Of a stretch of 51,814 nt of DNA, positions 18,900 to 28,994 are shown piece by piece. Positions within the stretch are counted from its first letter, which is position 1. Each line of letters starts with the position of its first letter. The translations under genes and the position numbers were made by a program. The notes beneath the pieces were generated by a model. That model did no database searches. It was not told the DNA's origin and was given only the letters and a program-made list of their open reading frames with translations. The DNA lies in NCBI GenBank assembly GCA_002069945.1, contig MWCH01000008.1, positions 1-51,814 on the forward strand, given 5' to 3'. This DNA is from Microgenomates group bacterium ADurb.Bin219. Lineage in GTDB: Bacteria > Patescibacteriota > Microgenomatia > UM-FILTER-40-11.

Positions 18900-19661
18900 A
18901 TGAAAAAAGTAAATAATGATTTAGTTCTGGTAAGTAAAAAATTTGTTGCAGAGGAATTGCAAAAAAAATTTGGAGATATTTGGAACGAAATTTGTGTTTT
19001 TGTCTATGGCTCTGTTTCTTATGGATTGGCTGACAATTTTTCCAATATAAATCTTGAGGTAATCCTTCCCGACAATAAGTTCAGCAAAATAAACTCAATT
19101 ATTACAAAAAAAGACGGAAAAGAAATTAAGATTGATTTTAGTCGGTGGTCTAAATACGAAGAATACTTTCCAACCTTTCCTAAAAATTGTGAATTTAGTT
19201 TTTGGATTATAGAGAAAGCTATTGTTCTCCATGATCCAAGCGGAAGATTTCAGAATATTAAAGAAAAAGTAAATAAATACTTTCCCGAAGATATATGGAA
19301 AGACAAAATATTTGAAAAGTGGTTTCAGGTTTCTTTTAACGGTATAAAAAAAGCTCTGGAAAGAAACGAGATTATTACCGCTCAAATAAACAAGGGAAAA
19401 ATGATTCAAGCCGTGATGGAACTGGTTTTTCTATTAAATCGCCAATATCTTCCACCAATAAAATGGCTTCATCGATTATTTTTGAACCTCCCTCATCTTT
19501 CAAAAGAAATTGAGCCTCATTTGAATATAATTTTGGAAATACAAGATCCAGACGAATTTGAAAAGGAAAATCGATTAGTCAATGAAATAATTGGAAGATA
19601 TCTAAAGTCTAATAATTTACTTTCAAATGAAAAAATTGAAAAGCCGTGGATGTTTGTATAA
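18900..19661 (+). CDS. Nucleotidyltransferase-fold protein with diverged active site
   Basis: 253 residues. VFVYGSVSYGLADNFSNINLEVILP matches the GSxxxG...SDIDL motif of Pol-beta-fold nucleotidyltransferases, but SDID is replaced by SNIN, losing metal-binding Asp residues; IKIDFSRW could hold the third Asp. The C-terminal helical part (PPIKWLHRLFLNLPHL) resembles the DUF4037-type partner. It may be catalytically dead or a regulator. Probably cotranscribed with the P-loop gene. Confidence 0.55.
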   Translation: MKKVNNDLVLVSKKFVAEELQKKFGDIWNEICVFVYGSVSYGLADNFSNINLEVILPDNKFSKINSIITKKDGKEIKIDFSRWSKYEEYFPTFPKNCEFSFWIIEKAIVLHDPSGRFQNIKEKVNKYFPEDIWKDKIFEKWFQVSFNGIKKALERNEIITAQINKGKMIQAVMELVFLLNRQYLPPIKWLHRLFLNLPHLSKEIEPHLNIILEIQDPDEFEKENRLVNEIIGRYLKSNNLLSNEKIEKPWMFV

Positions 19662-19736
19662 TGTGTTTTAGGATTTAAGTTAAAAATACGACAATATTAT
19701 TGGCATGAGTTAACAGTATAAACTTTTAACTTTGCC

Positions 19737-20078
19737 TGCTATGCTCGACATTGGTTCATAAAAGGAGATTTAAAAACTAAAGCACAGATATTAGGTGCAC
19801 ACAGTTCGGACCTAACTATTAAGGATAGGAAATTGTCGATAACAGGATTTAATCCTAGGTTAATAATTTTCAAAGGGAAAAAAGAAGTTAATAATTTCGC
19901 GAAAAAGTTCGAACCTGCAAAATATTCCAATATTACGTTCCAAAATGCAGATCTCGAACCTCTTCGTCCTTCTTAGCTGGACAAATGGAACGATTTTAGG
20001 TTGGCAACCTGGTTAGGCATCATTGAATTTCCGGAACTTACTCTTAAATCTACCCAGCAACTTTTAGCAGTAGCCTAA
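19737..20078 (+). pseudogene. Decayed recombinase-like C-terminus
   Basis: One frame with an in-frame TAG at 19974-19976 and a final TAA at 20076. It reads KTKAQILGAHSSDLTIKDRK, LSITGFNPRLIIF, and after the TAG LDKWNDFRLATWLGIIEF. The KxxIL...S.LTxKDxKLxxxxxxP pattern resembles the C-terminal tail of large serine recombinases in CPR genomes (my inference by pattern). No catalytic domain is left. It contains copy 1 of the 15-bp repeat found near tRNA-Gln. Confidence 0.4.
19908..19922. repeat. 15-bp island-flank repeat, copy 1
   Basis: TTCGAACCTGCAAAA occurs here and at 27571-27585 in the same orientation. Weaker similarity continues for some 60 nt (CCAAAA, then a CGTCCT block). Confidence 0.5.
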
Positions 20079-20363
20079 ACTTAAATCCTTCCATTTTTAT
20101 TATAACTCAATAGTTTTTTGTTTACTTTCTCGACTTTGCCAAGGAAAACGGGCTACCGATATGGAACAATCTCGGTTTGGATAGAAAGGACCTAATCCAC
20201 AACATTCGCTAGGTCCAAAAAAAGGTGAGAATTATAATCCAGAGAGACGGTCCCACCACCTTGATCATAGAAAGCCCACCTAAGCCTTCTTACTAGATTT
20301 TGCAAGAGTAAGGCAGTGGATATCCTTTAGTTTCATATGTTTTCAAGCGATTCTGAAAGGTTG
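20079..20363 (+). other. Decayed coding DNA, no intact gene
   Basis: Short open stretches look protein-like but have no starts. For example, 20126-20212 reads FLDFAKENGLPIWNNLG, LDRKDLIHNIR, and a later one reads RIIIQRDGPTTLIIESPPK. They are interrupted in all frames, which suggests further relics of the transferred element. Confidence 0.35.
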
Positions 20364-21575
20364 TTATCTAGGTTTTCCGATCCAAGAGCATAGATAGTCT
20401 TTATGAACCAGAGTTATATCTTGGTCTATTTGTGGATTTTGAGGAAAATGATTTGTAAGTTGATAATCCCTGGGACAGTAAGGGTCCTTAACAAATAAAC
20501 TTCTTTTGCCAGTTTGATGTGCGTGGTGTAGATATGATCTGGAGGCACATCCTCCTCTACACTTATCAATTAGACTGCAATCACGACATTCAACAATGGC
20601 TTCGGGGTGAGCATTTCGCCGCCTGAAGGTTTTGAATTGTGGAGATTCGATGATGTCTGGTAGCTTATCTTTTGTAAGATCCCCAGCTTTATAGTCATGA
20701 AGGTAAACGCAAGGGGAAACAGGTATTTTCCCATCTGGGGTCATCGAGTGAATCCTAAAGGAAGTTCTACCACAAGGGCATCCTTTTGCGCCTTCATAGT
20801 TCGTGACCGTTGCCAATGGCGGTTCACCCAGGTCAACAGGGTCGCACAGGTTCATCAGTAAAGAAAAACCTTCATAAAATTGCTGTCCTGTTAGAACGAG
20901 GCTCATGTGTTCAGGTTCGACTGGTTTTATTGTATTTATACGCACATTGGCATCAAATTTTCTGGCGGTATCAACAAGAGCTTTAATTCTATCTGGGGTA
21001 AAATTCCAGTTCATGGCGCACATTACGATTGTCCTATCAATTTCGTGTTCTCTTGCCAAAGAGAGAGCTTTTATTGCTTGAGAATATAAAGCAGCGCCCC
21101 TATTTCTGTTATGTTCTTCGGGGGAAGGAGAGTCCAAACTAACGTCAATGTCATTCAAGAGATTAAATTGTTGGGGATAGTCTTCTTCAAGATAAACAAC
21201 GCTTATGCCAGATGTGGTCAAGCCGACCAAAATATTATGAGCAACCAACCCATTGATAATATAGGGCAGAAGAGTGTTTCTACGATCCAGCCCGTTTGTA
21301 AAGAAAGGCTCGTTCCCCCCAAGGTTAACAGTTGTTACGCCTACTCTAGACAATTGATCTATTATTCGATCAATAATTTGAGGAGTAAGGTTTGCGCCTC
21401 TTTCTCTAGCTGACAAGGAATAACATTGTGGGCACTCATAAGGGCATGCATTTCCTAAGGTCCAACCGACATTTCTAATGTCAGTTTGACATTCTTCAAG
21501 CTCGTCGTGTTCGATAGGTCCAACCTCTCGTGTATAATGTTCCCTGGGATCTATTTGTTTAATTTCAGGCGACAT
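20364..21575 (-). CDS. Radical SAM/SPASM enzyme 1
   Basis: 403 residues. NACPYECPQCY gives the radical SAM cysteines C44, C48 and C51, followed by NLGGNEPFF in place of GGEP. A C-terminal SPASM-type cluster region has CPCG, CVYL, CRDCSLIDKCRGGC and DPYC, enough ligands for auxiliary Fe-S clusters. Members modify peptides or oxidise small alcohols and amino-sugars. It is divergent from the phosphorylase across a shared promoter region and is the only minus-strand gene of the island. Confidence 0.8.
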   Translation of the reverse strand: MSPEIKQIDPREHYTREVGPIEHDELEECQTDIRNVGWTLGNACPYECPQCYSLSARERGANLTPQIIDRIIDQLSRVGVTTVNLGGNEPFFTNGLDRRNTLLPYIINGLVAHNILVGLTTSGISVVYLEEDYPQQFNLLNDIDVSLDSPSPEEHNRNRGAALYSQAIKALSLAREHEIDRTIVMCAMNWNFTPDRIKALVDTARKFDANVRINTIKPVEPEHMSLVLTGQQFYEGFSLLMNLCDPVDLGEPPLATVTNYEGAKGCPCGRTSFRIHSMTPDGKIPVSPCVYLHDYKAGDLTKDKLPDIIESPQFKTFRRRNAHPEAIVECRDCSLIDKCRGGCASRSYLHHAHQTGKRSLFVKDPYCPRDYQLTNHFPQNPQIDQDITLVHKDYLCSWIGKPR

Positions 21576-21587
21576 CTTGGCCCTTTC

Positions 21588-21616
21588 TTGATAATTGGCA
21601 TATTATAAGATATAAT
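21588..21616 (+). promoter_or_regulatory. Island operon promoter (plus strand)
   Basis: TTGATA 21588-21593, 17 nt, TATAAT 21611-21616, about 31 nt before ATG 21648. Confidence 0.65.
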
Positions 21617-21630
21617 CCAAATTAATTCAA
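21602..21630 (-). promoter_or_regulatory. Radical SAM 1 promoter (minus strand)
   Basis: On the minus strand, TTGAAT (21630-21625), 17 nt and TATAAT (21607-21602). It interlocks with the plus-strand promoter, so the two must compete. Confidence 0.6.
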
Positions 21631-21647
21631 AATATATCAATTTTGCG

Positions 21648-22544
21648 ATGATGAGTATGGATAAAAATAAAGAAACTACCCCTGTCTTAAGTGACGCAAA
21701 CATTAAACTTCCAATAGAGATAGGAATTGTGGGAAGATTTGATGCAAAACTTCTTAAGCATAATTTCAGAAGGGTGATGATTCCAACAGAGTATGGTTTA
21801 ATGGATCGGGCTTTTTATGGAGAGGTAGATGGACGCACGATTTTAGTAATTTATGGAAGATTTGATAAAACCAGAAGTCTTTCTGAAGATATTAATTTTG
21901 AGAAAACACAAGCAGCATTCAACACTGCTGGTATAAAAACAATCATTGGGACCTTTGTAACTGGGGGTATCCAAAAAAAATACGATATTGGAAGTGTTTT
22001 TATAATTAGCGACTTAGTAGGAATTGGGGGTTATCGGCAGAGTCTTTATAAAAAGACGGGTTTCAAGAATGTAGATATGTATAAACCGTTTTGCGATGAA
22101 CTTAGAAGTGCGTTGATTAAAGGAGCTAAGGAGTGCGATTTCGAAGTTAACTCTTCTGGTATTTATGTTTGCTTTCATGGCTATCCAAGGATTGAAACAA
22201 AGGCAGAGCTTGATCATTATGAAAATATGGGTTGGGATATAGTTGGGCAAACTCTTGATCCTGAAGCGACGCTAGCTAGAGAATCTGGTTGTTGCTACGC
22301 CGCAGTAGCAGTGACAATTGACGACCCAAAAACAAGGGGAGAATTTTTGAGTGGAGACGAAAAAGCACGAAAGAAAACCCAGAATGCTATCCCTGAAGGT
22401 AGAATTAAGACTACTCAGGTTGTCTTCAACACTATAAAACACATTCCTCCACTAAAAAGAAGAAAATGTGTTTGTGGTCATAAGTTCCATAGCGAGAAGA
22501 GTCATTTTAGATACCTTCCCGACTATATTTTGGACTCCAAATAA
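21648..22544 (+). CDS. MTA/purine nucleoside phosphorylase family protein
   Basis: 298 residues. IEIGIVGRF replaces the usual IGIIGGSG. SGIYVCFHGYPRIETKAELDHYENMGWDI followed by VGQTLDPEATLARESGCCYA is the classic substrate pocket of MTAP/PNP enzymes (GPRFET, GMT.PEA.LARE). These enzymes phosphorolyse 5'-methylthioadenosine or related nucleosides. Beside two radical SAM enzymes it may remove 5'-deoxyadenosine, their inhibitory by-product (inference). An unusual C-terminal CVCGHKFHSEKSH may bind metal. The stop overlaps the next ATG as TAATG. Confidence 0.75.
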   Translation: MMSMDKNKETTPVLSDANIKLPIEIGIVGRFDAKLLKHNFRRVMIPTEYGLMDRAFYGEVDGRTILVIYGRFDKTRSLSEDINFEKTQAAFNTAGIKTIIGTFVTGGIQKKYDIGSVFIISDLVGIGGYRQSLYKKTGFKNVDMYKPFCDELRSALIKGAKECDFEVNSSGIYVCFHGYPRIETKAELDHYENMGWDIVGQTLDPEATLARESGCCYAAVAVTIDDPKTRGEFLSGDEKARKKTQNAIPEGRIKTTQVVFNTIKHIPPLKRRKCVCGHKFHSEKSHFRYLPDYILDSK

Positions 22545-22624
22545 TGCTAAAAGAAGTTGAGGTAAAAGATTATTTCAAGCGAGAGGGGACTGTAGCTGAT
22601 TGGTAGAATCCTGAGACTTCTGAT

Positions 22625-23029
22625 ATGTCACATATCTACGCAAGGCAGTTAGATCTGGTTTTGGAGTGGTTAGATAGGGGCAGAGTCAAAAAGGTACTTG
22701 ACGCCTCATGTGGTAAAGGCAGAGCAATAAAAAGGTTACACCACACATATTATGTTACAGGAGTAGATATTTCTAGAGAAATGCTAGAACATGTAAAAGA
22801 TCTAGAACTTGATAGAGTAGATTTGGTTCGGGCTGATGTTGACAAGCTTCCCTTTGATTCTAGTGTCTTTGACAGCGTGCTCTGCTTAGAAGCCCTTGTT
22901 CATTATCCAAATCCAAGAATAGCTTTGGGGGAGTTTAGGAGAGTGTTGAGACCTCACGGCTTATTGATTGTTGATGTCGACAATGAAAATTCACTTAAAC
23001 GATTAGTAAAAAAGAGTGGGATACATTAA
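22625..23029 (+). CDS. Methyltransferase, N-terminal ORF
   Basis: The 134-residue open part with SAM-binding motif I (VLDASCGKG) and the VLCLEALVHYPNP region. It lacks the C-terminal strands needed for a complete fold. It ends shortly after the slippery heptamer. See the combined entry 22544-23316. Confidence 0.6.
   Translation: MSHIYARQLDLVLEWLDRGRVKKVLDASCGKGRAIKRLHHTYYVTGVDISREMLEHVKDLELDRVDLVRADVDKLPFDSSVFDSVLCLEALVHYPNPRIALGEFRRVLRPHGLLIVDVDNENSLKRLVKKSGIH
23008..23014 (+). promoter_or_regulatory. Candidate -1 ribosomal frameshift site A-AAA-AAG
   Basis: The zero-frame codons are GTA AAA AAG (23006-23014), the same heptamer phase as E. coli dnaX. A -1 slip continues GAG TGG GAT ACA into the downstream ORF. 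I see no strong stimulatory hairpin or upstream Shine-Dalgarno. Confidence 0.4.
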
Positions 23030-23034
23030 GTAAA

Positions 23035-23316
23035 TTGTTCGAAAGGGACTTTCATCCTATGAGTGAAGGTATCTTTCGAGCATATACAGAGTTAGGGTTT
23101 AGAAGGCTTATTGAAGAAAGCGGTTTTGCTCTACAGGATATCGCTCGTCTAGGAGTTATAGTGCCTACGAATCTTCATCTGCCAGGTGGTCGAAAAATAA
23201 CTATAATAAGTCACAAGTTTTCAAAATCATCGGCTCATTTAGATCAGTTTTTGGAAACTTTTCCTCTTACAAGTTACCTGTCCACTTATACAATTGCTTT
23301 GTGTGAAAGAATCTAG
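23035..23316 (+). CDS. Methyltransferase, C-terminal ORF
   Basis: A 93-residue frame holding the last strands (FRRLIEESGFALQDI) typical of UbiE-like methyltransferases. Its only start (TTG 23035) has no signal, so it is probably reached by frameshift or is dead. Confidence 0.5.
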   Translation: MFERDFHPMSEGIFRAYTELGFRRLIEESGFALQDIARLGVIVPTNLHLPGGRKITIISHKFSKSSAHLDQFLETFPLTSYLSTYTIALCERI

Positions 23317-23384
23317 ATTTTTATTTTTGTCAATGACTCTGAGGCTAGCTAATTTCAGGTCTAGTTTGATATACTTTACGGTAT

Positions 23385-24542
23385 ATGAAGAAAAGATCAA
23401 TTACTATGCCTTTATATAAGGGCGGAAGTATATGTAATATCTTGCCCACAATTGCAGAATACAACTCCATTAAAACTTCTGATAGGGTTGAAAGATACAC
23501 CCTAGAGAAAGAAACCAGAGTTAAATTTATTGAAAAATTGAGGGAAGCAAAAAGAATAGTTATTTTAGAGGTCGATGCTTTAGCTTACGATTTATTTGCC
23601 AGAATAAAAAAAGGGTATGGTTTTTTAGAAGATTCAATAAAAATATCTTCAGTTTTTCCGACCTATACTCATACTGCATTCGCAAGCTTCATTACAGGAG
23701 CTAGTCCTTCGAAACACGGTGTTGTTGCAGGCACTTTTATGAAAGACGGGGTGGTCGATTGGATGGGTAACCTAAGTAAATCCGAGAAATTTTCCAGAAA
23801 TCTAATTACTTGTGAATCTTTGCTGCAAAATTTCAACAAGCAAGGGAAAAAAGTAGTCTCGATTCTTTATGATGTCAATGATGATAATTTTTCAAGATAT
23901 CTTTATCCGAATCCAATTTTTGTGTCCAGTAAAAGTTCTGCTCAAATTTTGATTGAACAGGCATATGATGTGGAAAAAAGAGTTTTCAAGAAAATATTAG
24001 AGTTTGCACCTCGTGATTTTTACATTCTTTCAGCCTATTTTTGGTTTCTTGATGGCGTGAGCGGGGAGTATGGAAAGTTTAATAAAGAAACATTTAATTA
24101 CCTTAAGTTCTTTTTTAGAAGAGTTGAACACTTAATGAAAAAATTTCCTAGAAAAACATTATTTGTAATTATGGGCGACCATGGTCACACAAGTCTTAGG
24201 AAAACTATTGTGATTGATCAGAAGAGTGTCGAGAAAATTAACCAAATATCTAAGTCGCAATTTGCCCTGGACGGAAGAGTAATGATGTTCTATTCCCAAA
24301 ATCCGAATTTAACAAGAAGGTTGTTTAATGAGGAGGCAGGAAGCTTTGTGGAAGAGATGTCGAAAAATAATTATGTTCGTCTTATTGGAGGAAGATGCGA
24401 GGTTGAGGATAGAATTGGTAATCTAATTTTTTTAGCTAAGCCTCACTACACTGTTAGATTAAAGCCCAAAAAGAAAAAAGCCACCCATGGAGGACTAAGT
24501 AAGGAAGAGATGCAAACAGTTTTCGGATTTTTTATGAACTAA
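23385..24542 (+). CDS. Type I phosphodiesterase/nucleotide pyrophosphatase-like enzyme
   Basis: 385 residues of the alkaline phosphatase superfamily. IVILEVDALAYDLF gives the first metal Asp; SSVFPTYTHTAFASFITGAS has the nucleophile Thr and the FPT...TG.xPxxHGV pattern; VIMGDHGH supplies the second metal set; THGGLSKEEM near the end gives the last His. Such enzymes cleave phosphodiester or pyrophosphate bonds of nucleotides or nucleotide sugars. No signal peptide, so it acts in the cytoplasm. Two nt separate it from the next gene. Confidence 0.75.
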   Translation: MKKRSITMPLYKGGSICNILPTIAEYNSIKTSDRVERYTLEKETRVKFIEKLREAKRIVILEVDALAYDLFARIKKGYGFLEDSIKISSVFPTYTHTAFASFITGASPSKHGVVAGTFMKDGVVDWMGNLSKSEKFSRNLITCESLLQNFNKQGKKVVSILYDVNDDNFSRYLYPNPIFVSSKSSAQILIEQAYDVEKRVFKKILEFAPRDFYILSAYFWFLDGVSGEYGKFNKETFNYLKFFFRRVEHLMKKFPRKTLFVIMGDHGHTSLRKTIVIDQKSVEKINQISKSQFALDGRVMMFYSQNPNLTRRLFNEEAGSFVEEMSKNNYVRLIGGRCEVEDRIGNLIFLAKPHYTVRLKPKKKKATHGGLSKEEMQTVFGFFMN

Positions 24543-24544
24543 AA

Positions 24545-25615
24545 ATGTCAACAATAGAAAGATTGGAAGAAATAGATCTCAATATAACTAATAGGTGTAA
24601 TATAGGTTGCTCGCATTGTTTATTCGCTGCAGGACCAGAAAAAGATGATAATCTCTCACTTGGAGAGATAGAAAGTGTGTTGGAAGACGGCAGGAAACTT
24701 GGGGCAGAGGAGGTTCATATATCTGGAGGTGAGCCTACTGTCAGGAGGGATCTTGAAAAAGTTTTAAGAATTGCAGATAGTAAAGGATACTTCGTAAGGC
24801 TTCAAACGAATATGTGGGCTTTTACACCAAAGATGCTGCCCTTGATAATGGAAACGACAGATGAGGTTCTCACCAGCCTAGACGGTCTTGAGGCCTCTCA
24901 CGATCTAATAAGAAAACCTGGTTCGTTTCAGAAAACAACCAGCTCGATTGACCGTTTGTTAGAAGTTGGGATTCGAGTTGTTGTAATAACCGCTGTACAG
25001 AGAAAGAATTATCAAGATATTCCAAAACTTGTTGAATTTGTTTCGAATAGAGAGGTAAATGCTCATTTTCTCTTTAGTATTACGCCCTTAGGTCGAGCTA
25101 CCCAGGAAGATGTTGTTTCGGTTATTGAGTGGGAGAAATTAGTGGAGAAACTCTATGAAACATATAAAGCTAGAGATTTATCAACCGATGTGGTGTGTGA
25201 GCTACATCACTTAAGAGGAGATGAATCTTTTACCTTTAACGGCGCTGAATGTAGATTGTATACGAGGAACCATGCAGTAGTCTTGCCTGACGGTAGAGTT
25301 TATCCGTGTTCAATGTTTATTACCACTGATAAATTTCTGGGAAATATCAAAAAGGAACCCTTCGAAGAAATTTGGAGCAATTCACCAGTGTGGAGTTTCT
25401 ACGATAATCGAATAAATGATCCTAGTTGTGGTAACTGCAAATTAATTGCTCTTTGTAAAGGAGGTTGCCCTGGTTATTCATACTTTTTTACGGGAGATAT
25501 TACCAAGTGTGATCCACGTTGCGAGCCTGGTATGTATCCAGTGTGTCCGTCATGGAAACTGAATTTAAGAAAAGCTACCCTCTCCTGCTCCACTTGGCGG
25601 GTAATGAAAAGATAA
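24545..25615 (+). CDS. Radical SAM/SPASM enzyme 2
   Basis: 356 residues. DLNITNRCNIGCSHCLF gives C18, C22 and C25, VHISGGEPTVR the SAM-binding GGEP. The SPASM part has PDGRVYPCSMF, LGNIKKEPFEEIW, and CGNCKLIALCKGGCPGYSYF with later Cys residues. It differs from enzyme 1 in the core, so they probably catalyse successive steps. MoaA/PqqE-like maturases and BtrN-like dehydrogenases share this architecture; the substrate is unknown. Confidence 0.85.
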   Translation: MSTIERLEEIDLNITNRCNIGCSHCLFAAGPEKDDNLSLGEIESVLEDGRKLGAEEVHISGGEPTVRRDLEKVLRIADSKGYFVRLQTNMWAFTPKMLPLIMETTDEVLTSLDGLEASHDLIRKPGSFQKTTSSIDRLLEVGIRVVVITAVQRKNYQDIPKLVEFVSNREVNAHFLFSITPLGRATQEDVVSVIEWEKLVEKLYETYKARDLSTDVVCELHHLRGDESFTFNGAECRLYTRNHAVVLPDGRVYPCSMFITTDKFLGNIKKEPFEEIWSNSPVWSFYDNRINDPSCGNCKLIALCKGGCPGYSYFFTGDITKCDPRCEPGMYPVCPSWKLNLRKATLSCSTWRVMKR

Positions 25616-25639
25616 CAATTTATTTTATAATGTTTTAAA

Positions 25640-26617
25640 ATGATTAGGGAACCCATAGATATTATAATCGTGACCTGGAATGCCTGCGATTATACCAGAT
25701 ATTGCCTCGATAGTATTAGGAGTCACACCGACTATCCGTATAATCTTATAGTAGTTGATAATGGTTCTATTGATGGAACCATTGACTATTTGGAGAGACA
25801 AGATGATGTTCTCCTTATTCAAAATCGAGAGAACTTGGGATATGGAGGAGCTATAACACGAGGTTACGAGGTGGGAGATAGTCATCTAACCTGTGTTATG
25901 AATAACGATATTGTGGTTTCTCCAGGGTGGCTTGAGCCCATGGTGAGAATTATGAGGCAAGACAGAGAGATTGGCATTCTTGGGACACTAAGACCAGCCA
26001 GTTTTTGTTTGCATCCCGATGGACAAAGAGATACGGGTTTAGTGCTGAGAGAAACCAGAGGATATAAACTTCCAGACCCAGAAGTTTGGTTAGAACAGTT
26101 TTGCTCTCCTTATACTTATGAGGATTTTGTCGAAGAGGCAAAAAGGATAAACAATTTTGGTTTAAGAGAAATTGAAGGACCGCCATCTTTTATTAGCACA
26201 TGCTGTGTCCTTGTTAATAGAGAAATAATCGATAGAATAGGTGGTCTAGCAGACCCTAGGTTTTTTAGATACGGATGCGAAGATGTGGATCTCTCTTGGA
26301 GGATCTCAATAGAAGGTTATAAAATTGCGCTTACCTCCGAAGCCTATGTACATCATTTTAAGCATGTAAGCGTTGAGGTTAGTGATCTTGACAGAAAAGC
26401 ATCGACCGAGGGGAATATGAGAATTTTCTATGAGAAGTGGAGAAACGAAATTAATCGATTTTTGACTGCCAAATTAAGTGAGGGAGTAGATGTAAAAAAA
26501 AGACTAGGTGAAGAAGATCCAGATTATTGGTTCCTAGCAAGACTTGAAGGAATGATAGGAGCAGAAAAGTTTTGGCAGTCAGTTGAAAGAGTAAAATCTG
26601 GAAAGGAGCGAATATGA
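25640..26617 (+). CDS. Family 2 glycosyltransferase
   Basis: 325 residues, GT-A fold. IDIIIVTWNACDYTRYCLDS begins the nucleotide-sugar site, VVDNGSIDGT follows, and MNNDIVVSPGW carries the DxD-like metal motif. FRYGCEDVDLSWR is the acceptor-side ED motif of rhamnosyl- and similar transferases. No membrane anchor. A TATAAT lies 8 nt before the ATG, so it may also start separately. It overlaps the next gene by 4 nt (ATGA). Confidence 0.85.
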   Translation: MIREPIDIIIVTWNACDYTRYCLDSIRSHTDYPYNLIVVDNGSIDGTIDYLERQDDVLLIQNRENLGYGGAITRGYEVGDSHLTCVMNNDIVVSPGWLEPMVRIMRQDREIGILGTLRPASFCLHPDGQRDTGLVLRETRGYKLPDPEVWLEQFCSPYTYEDFVEEAKRINNFGLREIEGPPSFISTCCVLVNREIIDRIGGLADPRFFRYGCEDVDLSWRISIEGYKIALTSEAYVHHFKHVSVEVSDLDRKASTEGNMRIFYEKWRNEINRFLTAKLSEGVDVKKRLGEEDPDYWFLARLEGMIGAEKFWQSVERVKSGKERI

Positions 26618-27477
26618 CGCCAGAATACAACAAAAGACTAACAGAAACTTTAATCCAAGGGCATGTTTCAGTGGATAACATAAGAGAGATTTTAAGAAAA
26701 GAAGGTTTGCATTTGTCGGATGATTCAGTGAGAAATATTGCCTACGGGATAATGGTTTTTAGGGAGATTGGAGGAGAACTATTCCAAGAACCATTTTTTA
26801 TCTATGGGTCTACAGCTAAGGGCACGGCTGGTGTCGAGCCTAAGATTCAAGAGATACAATACTGGAAGGATTTACACTTCTTGGGAAGCACATTTCGAAT
26901 TTATGGCATGAGCGATCTGGATATAAGATGTGTTGCTCAGGATCCGCAAGGCGTGTTTGAAATTATAGCGAAATCGAAAGACAATCTTTCACCCTTTACC
27001 CTCAGACCTGTAGGTATTAGAGTGGACAACATTCAGGATGTTGAGGATGATATTAAAAGGACAGATGCGCCCTCTTTCTATAGAAGAGTCTTACTTCTTA
27101 ACTCCCCAATAGTCTTGAGTGGACAAGATACTTTGGGGACGCTTACTGAAGTTGGTAGAGATTATCTGTCACAAGTTGATGAGACTTATGAAAAAGAGAT
27201 GGCAGAAGCTAGAAAGATAGTAAGAAGTAGGTTGGAAGGTTCTGTCGCAACATTTCTGGATTCTGGTGAACTATCTGGGAGATTTCCAGTTTTTTATTCC
27301 GAAAGGAATCTAATAATTAAAAATTTCCAGAGGACTCATTCTTTTAAGATTTCCTTTAGCTTGAGGGAGAGTTCGCTAGTTGTAGTTGAGGTGAATAGCG
27401 AGAAGGATTGCTCTAGACATCATCTAAGGGTTTGTGATAATCCAAGCACTCCTTTTAACGAGATAAATAATATCTAG
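26614..27477 (+). CDS. Nucleotidyltransferase-like protein
   Basis: 287 residues. FFIYGSTAKGTAG and YGMSDLDIRCV form the GS...SDLD active-site pair of Pol-beta-fold nucleotidyltransferases, split by an unusual 30-residue insertion. Unlike the gene at 18900 it keeps its Asp residues, so it is probably active, adding a nucleotide to a small molecule, protein or RNA. A later VVVEVNSEKDC segment may hold the third Asp or Glu. Last gene of the island operon. Confidence 0.65.
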   Translation: MTPEYNKRLTETLIQGHVSVDNIREILRKEGLHLSDDSVRNIAYGIMVFREIGGELFQEPFFIYGSTAKGTAGVEPKIQEIQYWKDLHFLGSTFRIYGMSDLDIRCVAQDPQGVFEIIAKSKDNLSPFTLRPVGIRVDNIQDVEDDIKRTDAPSFYRRVLLLNSPIVLSGQDTLGTLTEVGRDYLSQVDETYEKEMAEARKIVRSRLEGSVATFLDSGELSGRFPVFYSERNLIIKNFQRTHSFKISFSLRESSLVVVEVNSEKDCSRHHLRVCDNPSTPFNEINNI

Positions 27478-27636
27478 TAAATTATTTGGCGGTAGCCTTG
27501 GAATTTACCTTAATGAAGTAGTAAAAACGGTTCGAAACTGGCGAATTTAGCAAAAAATGGAGCTAAGATTTTCGAACCTGCAAAACTGCCCGATAATTCA
27601 ACCCAAAAGCGGTCTTTGCGACCCTCTCGTCCTACC
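27478..27636 (+). other. Right flank of the island, decayed
   Basis: No gene. An open stretch (SLGIYLNEVVKTVRNWRI) ends at a stop, then repeat copy 2 and a segment similar to 19930-19980 run up to the CCA of tRNA-Gln. Confidence 0.35.
27571..27585. repeat. 15-bp island-flank repeat, copy 2
   Basis: TTCGAACCTGCAAAA, identical to 19908-19922, about 52 nt from the 3' end of tRNA-Gln. Confidence 0.5.
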
Positions 27637-27711
27637 TGGCTGCGGGGCTAGGATTCGAACCTAGGATTTTCTGCTCCAAAGGCAGACGTGCTACCGCTAC
27701 ACCACCCCGCA
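27637..27711 (-). tRNA. tRNA-Gln(TTG), CCA encoded
   Basis: Acceptor TGCGGGG/CCCCGCA with the U1-A72 pair and G73 expected for Gln, anticodon stem TCTGC/GCAGA with loop CTTTGGA. CCA lies at 27639-27637. A TATAAT lies just upstream on the minus strand. Confidence 0.95.
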
Positions 27712-28615: not shown

Positions 28616-28688
28616 GCCGGGATAGCCAAGGTAGTCACGGCGCGTGTCTGAAAAACATGAGATCTCAGTGCAACTCTGGGTCCCGGCA
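28616..28688 (+). tRNA. tRNA-Phe(GAA), unusual T-loop
   Basis: Acceptor GCCGGGA/TCCCGGC, anticodon stem CGTGT/ACATG with loop CTGAAAA. The T-loop is TGCAACT, with G at position 55. The D-stem has only 3 bp. Confidence 0.9.
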
Positions 28689-28724
28689 CATCTCACCTAT
28701 TTGTTCGATGCAAGCCATCTTAAA

Positions 28725-28994
28725 ATGAACTTTGTTTATGTTATTAAGTGTAATAACGGAAAGTATTACACAGGAATAACAAATAATTTAAAAAAGAGAA
28801 CAACAGAACACTGTTTAGGAAAGGGATCTCTTTTTACAAAGTCTCATTTGCCTGTAAAGTTGGTATATTTTGAAAATTTTTTATCAAGGTACGATGCTGC
28901 CCAAAGAGAGAAAGTGATAAAAGATATGAGTCAAAAGAAAAAGCTGGCGTTGATTAAAAAGTTTACATCGAGCGATAGCGAGATGCGGAAGTAG
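28725..28994 (+). CDS. GIY-YIG nuclease-domain protein (YhbQ/UPF0213-like)
   Basis: About 89 residues from ATG 28725, chosen because the GIY-YIG fold begins at once: FVYVIKCNNGKYYTGITNNL supplies both tyrosines and LKKRTTEHCLG the catalytic Arg, followed by a conserved Glu in QREKVIK. The frame opens earlier, but that part is the tRNA-Phe antisense-like sequence. The stop lies inside tRNA-Gly (28985). Wedged between two tRNA genes, it may be a mobile or homing-like nuclease. Confidence 0.8.
   Translation: MNFVYVIKCNNGKYYTGITNNLKKRTTEHCLGKGSLFTKSHLPVKLVYFENFLSRYDAAQREKVIKDMSQKKKLALIKKFTSSDSEMRK

Follow-up and report, generated by a model that had tools for sequence, protein, structure and literature searches.

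An island of seven tightly packed genes in the genome of Microgenomates group bacterium ADurb.Bin219, centered on a radical S-adenosylmethionine (SAM)/SPASM enzyme that we call rSAM1, is well supported as a horizontally acquired element with a biosynthetic role. This conclusion follows from the foreign codon usage and k-mer composition of the island, the absence of its key genes from sampled relatives, and the recurrence of its rSAM1 and phosphorylase-like gene pair in natural-product-type clusters of other phyla. The island spans positions 20364-27477 of the window, the 51,814-nucleotide stretch analyzed here (positions 1-51814 of contig MWCH01000008.1; the 22 contigs of the genome total 892,032 bases, with a completeness of 98.9%). 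We put it at about an even chance that the island is an acquired variant of a widespread, unnamed radical SAM pathway leading to a small molecule of nucleoside or sugar type. The features of the region are as follows.

19662-20363, no strand: non-coding left margin, holding a supposed recombinase relic; no family match
19908-19979, + strand: left imperfect direct repeat, exact core at 19908-19922
20364-21575, - strand: rSAM1, radical SAM/SPASM enzyme (Pfam Radical_SAM and SPASM)
21576-21647, both strands: divergent promoter region, promoter-like sites 11/12 and 10/12
21648-22544, + strand: MTAP-fold phosphorylase-like enzyme of a noncanonical "YGRF" clade (PNP_UDP_1, 4e-19)
22544-23316, + strand: class I SAM methyltransferase, broken (Pfam; lesions read in the sequence)
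23385-24542, + strand: type I phosphodiesterase (PDE)/nucleotide pyrophosphatase family, PF01663 (1e-19)
24545-25615, + strand: rSAM2, second radical SAM/SPASM enzyme (Pfam)
25640-26617, + strand: family 2 glycosyltransferase (GT2; Pfam)
26614-27477, + strand: orphan nucleotidyltransferase-like protein (NTase), GS...SDLDIR motif readable
27571-27642, + strand: right imperfect direct repeat, running into the 3′ end of tRNA-Gln
27637-27711, - strand: tRNA-Gln (TTG), probable integration site

Gene content and foreign composition of the island

The tight packing reported in the initial annotation is borne out by intergenic gaps of, in order, 72 (divergent), -1, 68, 2, 24, and -4 nt. So is its divergent promoter pair: the 72-nt gap contains promoter-like sites in both directions that match the consensus at 11/12 and 10/12 positions, and five such sites occur in the 301 nt scanned compared to 1.2 in shuffled sequences. 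The gene identities it proposed stand for the radical SAM/SPASM pair, PDE, and GT2, but it missed that the methyltransferase is broken, its phosphorylase lacks the phosphate motifs, and its nucleotidyltransferase has no Pfam match. Six of the seven genes are open over their full length, the methyltransferase being the exception. No open reading frame (ORF) of at least 20 amino acids that could encode a precursor peptide lies in the intergenic gaps, and the margins hold three ORFs of chance size only.

AGA and AGG together make up 74-95% of the arginine codons across all seven genes (49 ± 18% in 95 background genes), while ATA accounts for 23-50% of isoleucine codons (16 ± 10% in the background), in agreement with the atypical codons first noticed by eye. 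All seven genes fall within the lowest 17% for codon fit, unlike the upstream neighbors (an ATPase-like gene and a DUF4037 gene), whose fit is not poor. The tetranucleotide composition is likewise foreign: the distance of 19737-27476 is 0.408 against a background of 0.152 ± 0.039 with a maximum of 0.280 (z ~6.6; 55 overlapping chunks, with one of seven background stretches, which read as N, excluded), and the signal drops off at both island ends. Separately, the DUF4037 gene directly to the left (18900-19661) has an unusually low GC content (30%) without the codon signature of the island.

The insertion was probably at the 3′ end of the adjoining tRNA-Gln, which lies where the initial annotation placed it. 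The 15-bp repeat reported at both ends is exact (TTCGAACCTGCAAAA, at 19908-19922 and 27571-27585) and extends into an imperfect direct-repeat pair of 72-75 bp in which 54/75 positions are identical (72%; E 7e-4, blastn of the two ends). Other tRNA genes cluster around the island. In a relative of the same class (G006), the corresponding tRNA array, tRNA-Gln included, leads into ordinary genes without an island. The two same-family genomes lack a tRNA array next to the flanking transporter gene and so provide no clean empty site. Foreign composition, a tRNA at one end, and direct repeats, as expected of a tRNA-linked genomic island, are thus all present, but no integrase gene was recognized within the island or its margins. 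The "recombinase-like relic" described earlier was not confirmed: it matches no family and occurs nowhere else in the genome.

rSAM1 represents a widely transferred family

Relatives of rSAM1 with 48-66% identity occur in Actinomycetota, Bacillota, Pseudomonadota, Mycoplasmatota, Patescibacteria lineages, and Woesearchaeota. A tblastn search of plasmids recovered copies with 53-62% identity in Streptomyces clavuligerus, Phaeobacter inhibens, and an Enterococcus, next to genes for another radical SAM enzyme, a pyrophosphatase-like protein, a kinase, an exporter, an acetyltransferase, or an adenylation-domain protein. A scan of GTDB genomes added 44 further loci, some from metagenome-assembled genomes (MAGs), for which misplaced contigs are a possibility. 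Of 380 genomes sampled from the host phylum, only that of the window was found to have rSAM1, and IMG/VR scans with rSAM1 returned nothing useful. The best NCBIfam match is MftC at 83 bits, far below its cut-off of 265, and no equivalog fits. Judged by its sequence relationships, rSAM1 thus belongs to an unnamed, widely transferred cross-phylum family.

Every residue that is invariant in the family, each of the cluster cysteines among them, is retained in the window copy. Its AlphaFold2 model (pLDDT 90.8) resembles anSME, BlsE, PqqE, SuiB, and viperin with TM scores of ~0.4-0.6, a predicted likeness of fold that does not decide the substrate. In the family tree, the window sequence falls near the actinobacterial type without support, and its grouping in a clade with the other Patescibacteria/Woesearchaeota remains statistically acceptable (p-AU 0.34 and 0.20); the tree therefore does not identify the donor.

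rSAM1 relatives usually reside beside nucleotide-type genes

We counted neighbors at 47 homologous loci, where the numbers are lower bounds because many contigs are short. A B12-binding radical SAM gene lies near rSAM1 at 29 of the 47, and about 23 carry a pyrophosphatase-like gene (24 counted, one by a weak match). HprK-like (17), APH-like (11), and YGRF-clade genes (10) follow, along with deaminase-like amidohydrolase (9), MilB-type (9), MilA-type (8), TenA (8), and dTMP-kinase-like (5) genes; some of these neighbors, such as dTMP kinase, may be housekeeping genes. A second radical enzyme adjoining rSAM1 is, from these gene contexts, a common arrangement. The second radical SAM enzyme of the island, rSAM2, is not of the B12-binding type.

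Eight actinobacterial loci share the gene order B12-binding radical SAM, rSAM1, kinase genes, YGRF enzyme, MilA-type, MilB-type, and TenA. The MilA-type gene matches CMP 5-hydroxymethylase (2e-105, 356 bits, compared to 73 bits for the best ordinary thymidylate synthase), and the MilB-type gene matches CMP/hydroxymethyl-CMP hydrolase (7e-38). Because the MilA and MilB steps yield free 5-hydroxymethylcytosine in mildiomycin biosynthesis (PMC11784345), these actinobacterial clusters are, by homology, nucleoside- or pyrimidine-type pathways.

Several individual loci merit description. That of Paenibacillus oralis (L024) contains additional radical SAM genes together with one methyltransferase-like and one thymidylate-kinase-like gene. 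A Shapirobacteria locus (L057:8378-18355) encodes a B12-binding radical SAM enzyme with MilB-like and thymidylate-kinase-like genes, flanked by two Nudix genes that begin identically (N-terminal 110 residues viewed). In a Liptonbacterium (L048:318-1195), the B12-binding radical SAM gene beside rSAM1 is in two fragments with the middle missing. A short Hsp70-like chaperone gene adjoins the locus in a Woesearchaeon and in this Liptonbacterium (L046:6958-8229 and L048:2929-4194). A protein of ~535-600 amino acids is encoded next to rSAM1 in five loci (L013:13203-14807, L027:11086-12783, L028, L029, and L052), the L027 copy having no Pfam match; it may replace the B12-binding radical SAM enzyme in some rSAM1 loci.

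The phosphorylase-like enzyme has lost the canonical phosphate motifs

The phosphorylase-like protein contains a PNP_UDP_1 superfamily domain (4e-19) and aligns with S-methyl-5′-thioadenosine phosphorylase (MTAP) overall, but lies below every NCBIfam cut-off (112.8 bits against 274.85 for the MTAP equivalog). The island protein and its ten rSAM1-linked homologs all have GGSG replaced by VGRF/VLRA/VARP, PRHGxxH by YGRFxxxR, and NMTEYPE by GQTxDPE or a close variant. When a profile built on this clade was searched against 28 rSAM1 genomes, ten copies scored 410-466 bits, each within an rSAM1 locus, and no other protein exceeded 89 bits. Since five of the ten had gone into the profile, part of their high score is built in, which affects neither the gap to other copies nor the linkage. 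The gene is absent from sampled host relatives. These motif changes suggest that the YGRF enzyme is a pathway-specific N-glycosidic enzyme, possibly phosphate-independent.

A candidate pathway and its alternatives

The chemistry that we infer for the island would begin with rSAM1 and rSAM2 remodeling a nucleoside, nucleotide, or sugar, rSAM2 taking the place of the B12-binding radical SAM enzyme that is usual in other clusters. The YGRF enzyme would then act on a pathway intermediate, making, breaking, or exchanging an N-glycosidic bond with no need of the usual phosphate site, a role beyond mere clearing of 5′-deoxyadenosine, and GT2 would attach a sugar. NTase could mask a hydroxyl group with a nucleotide that PDE later removes; this masking and unmasking would correspond to the part that kinases (and phosphatases in some clusters) may play in relatives. 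The methylation step would have been lost. The product would most likely be an antimicrobial or signaling metabolite. A nucleotide- or sugar-decorated product, as the initial annotation proposed, agrees with the MilA/MilB context of the relatives, but that context is absent from the island.

Several observations weigh against this pathway. The island contains no MilA, MilB, B12-binding partner, kinase, or exporter, and no close C1-type B12 radical SAM enzyme is encoded elsewhere in the host. The rSAM1 family includes no member with a demonstrated substrate or product. As far as searched, none of PDE, GT2, and NTase turned up beside rSAM1 elsewhere. Two lesions interrupt the methyltransferase, an in-frame TAG at 22604 and a frameshift near 23027-23035; a restart at 22625 would keep the SAM-binding core and drop both ends, and an assembly error may lie behind the lesions.

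The two methyltransferase lesions, together with the lack of a recognizable integrase and of a B12 partner, kinase, and exporter, would also suit a transferred cluster in decay that no longer functions, with its other genes open only through recency and no product made. We regard such a remnant as unlikely, given that six of the seven genes are open at full length, rSAM1 keeps its invariant residues and cluster cysteines, and the divergent promoter-like sites are intact.

Radical SAM enzymes release 5′-deoxyadenosine, and the phosphorylase-like gene could be a housekeeping helper that clears this by-product or 5′-methylthioadenosine (MTA), in which case the pathway need not be of nucleoside type. 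Its membership in the MTAP family at the superfamily level and the occurrence of 5′-deoxyadenosine/MTA deaminase superfamily deaminases in other rSAM1 loci are compatible with this role. The canonical phosphate motifs are nevertheless lost across the whole clade, and ordinary MTAPs coexist in several rSAM1 genomes and in the host, whose other MTAP (contig C4) keeps the canonical phosphate-binding motifs. Simple clearing of 5′-deoxyadenosine, which the initial annotation had suggested for this enzyme, is therefore weakened, since the distinct clade lacks the canonical phosphate ligands and the separate host MTAP could do the job; we consider the helper role quite improbable.

The island might also join two unrelated pieces, the rSAM1-phosphorylase pair and a surface-glycan or nucleotide-sugar operon of another source comprising PDE, rSAM2, GT2, and NTase. 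Of the co-occurrences expected from the initial annotation, those of rSAM1 with the phosphorylase-like gene and with an rSAM2-like gene recur elsewhere, but those with PDE, GT2, and NTase, as far as searched, do not. GT2 has relatives at 32-33% identity in two genomes of the host class, each preceded, with a 4-11-nt overlap, by a nucleotidyltransferase-fold gene (PolyA_pol head) and with nucleoside diphosphate kinase, HD, and other glycosyltransferase genes nearby, and a PDE relative sits among GT2 genes. Foreign codon usage is nonetheless uniform over all seven genes, the spacing from the MTAP-like gene to NTase is that of a tight transcription unit, and rSAM2 is most similar, among all the relatives recovered, to two genes that flank rSAM1 in an alphaproteobacterial MAG (L025; 30% and 28% identity, nearly full length). 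A two-source origin is accordingly about as improbable as the helper role.

PDE displays readable FPTYTHT, GDHGH, and ATHGG motifs, and plasmid searches with rSAM2, PDE, and GT2 returned generic superfamily matches only. The NTase label derives solely from its readable GS...DLD motif: the protein has no Pfam or PDB match, no relatives in phylum-wide, plasmid, or IMG/VR searches or in the 28 rSAM1 genomes, and a single-sequence fold (pLDDT 33.7) that is not usable. It weakly matches a kinase gene in L022 (E 2e-4 over 130 amino acids). The nucleotidyltransferases that precede the GT2 relatives were considered as its kin and rejected, as they have no detectable homology to it. The host-class blocks with these GT2 relatives (L083:3952-9584 and L084:7433-12339) consist of packed HD, PolyA_pol-head nucleotidyltransferase, nucleoside diphosphate kinase, GT2, and other glycosyltransferase genes and resemble nucleotide-sugar product clusters; that of L084 also encodes a weakly HprK-like protein.

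Comparison with known systems

The hopanoid (HpnH/HpnG) and futalosine (MqnE/MqnB) pathways each combine a radical SAM enzyme with a PNP-superfamily enzyme, the same pairing as in the island. rSAM1, however, belongs to the SPASM enzymes and matches the family of neither HpnH nor MqnE, and adenosylation is only hypothetical here. Adenosylation followed by depurination is one attractive form of the proposed pathway by analogy, which we rate as rather unlikely.

The cytosine-nucleoside pathways of the mildiomycin and blasticidin S type (MilA, MilB, MilG/BlsE) are related through the eight actinobacterial loci where MilA- and MilB-type genes adjoin rSAM1 relatives, and BlsE is among the nearest folds to rSAM1. 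The island itself has no MilA, MilB, or MilC, and its base therefore need not be cytosine; conversely, the published mildiomycin gene list includes neither an MTAP-fold enzyme nor a B12 radical SAM enzyme (PMC11784345). Compact radical SAM nucleoside clusters are already known for albomycin and 4′-thiothymidine (thmA-C), where they include a nucleoside kinase and a nucleotide hydrolase (PMC12691670), but their gene set, as compared by published descriptions, differs from that of the island.

MftC is the best NCBIfam match of rSAM1, and GT2 weakly resembles MftF (48 bits against a cut-off of 280). A mycofactocin reading was rejected, with MftC below its cut-off and no precursor in the gaps, as was that of a radical SAM enzyme for ribosomally synthesized and post-translationally modified peptides (RiPPs), with no precursor peptide gene and no RRE domain found. 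The radical SAM domain begins at residue 40 in rSAM1 and residue 12 in rSAM2; no other Pfam domain was found in them.

The open-access literature searched yielded no description of the island gene set, the rSAM1 family, or the YGRF clade. The rSAM1 and YGRF gene pair, with its actinobacterial and rhizobial relatives, offers a handle on an apparently uncharacterized radical pathway of bacteria and archaea. Minimal-genome Patescibacteria are generally considered to make few specialized metabolites, and an acquired nucleoside-type cluster in one of them would be notable if true. The fullest version of the proposal comprises an undescribed cross-domain family of radical SAM nucleoside pathways, an MTAP-fold enzyme rebuilt for phosphate-free base exchange or removal, and a Patescibacterium that gained an antimicrobial with nucleotidyl masking and PDE unmasking; as a whole, we hold it to be somewhat unlikely.

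To the right of the island, a small ORF (28644-28994) that appears GIY-YIG-like by eye lies between, and overlaps, tRNA-Phe and tRNA-Gly.

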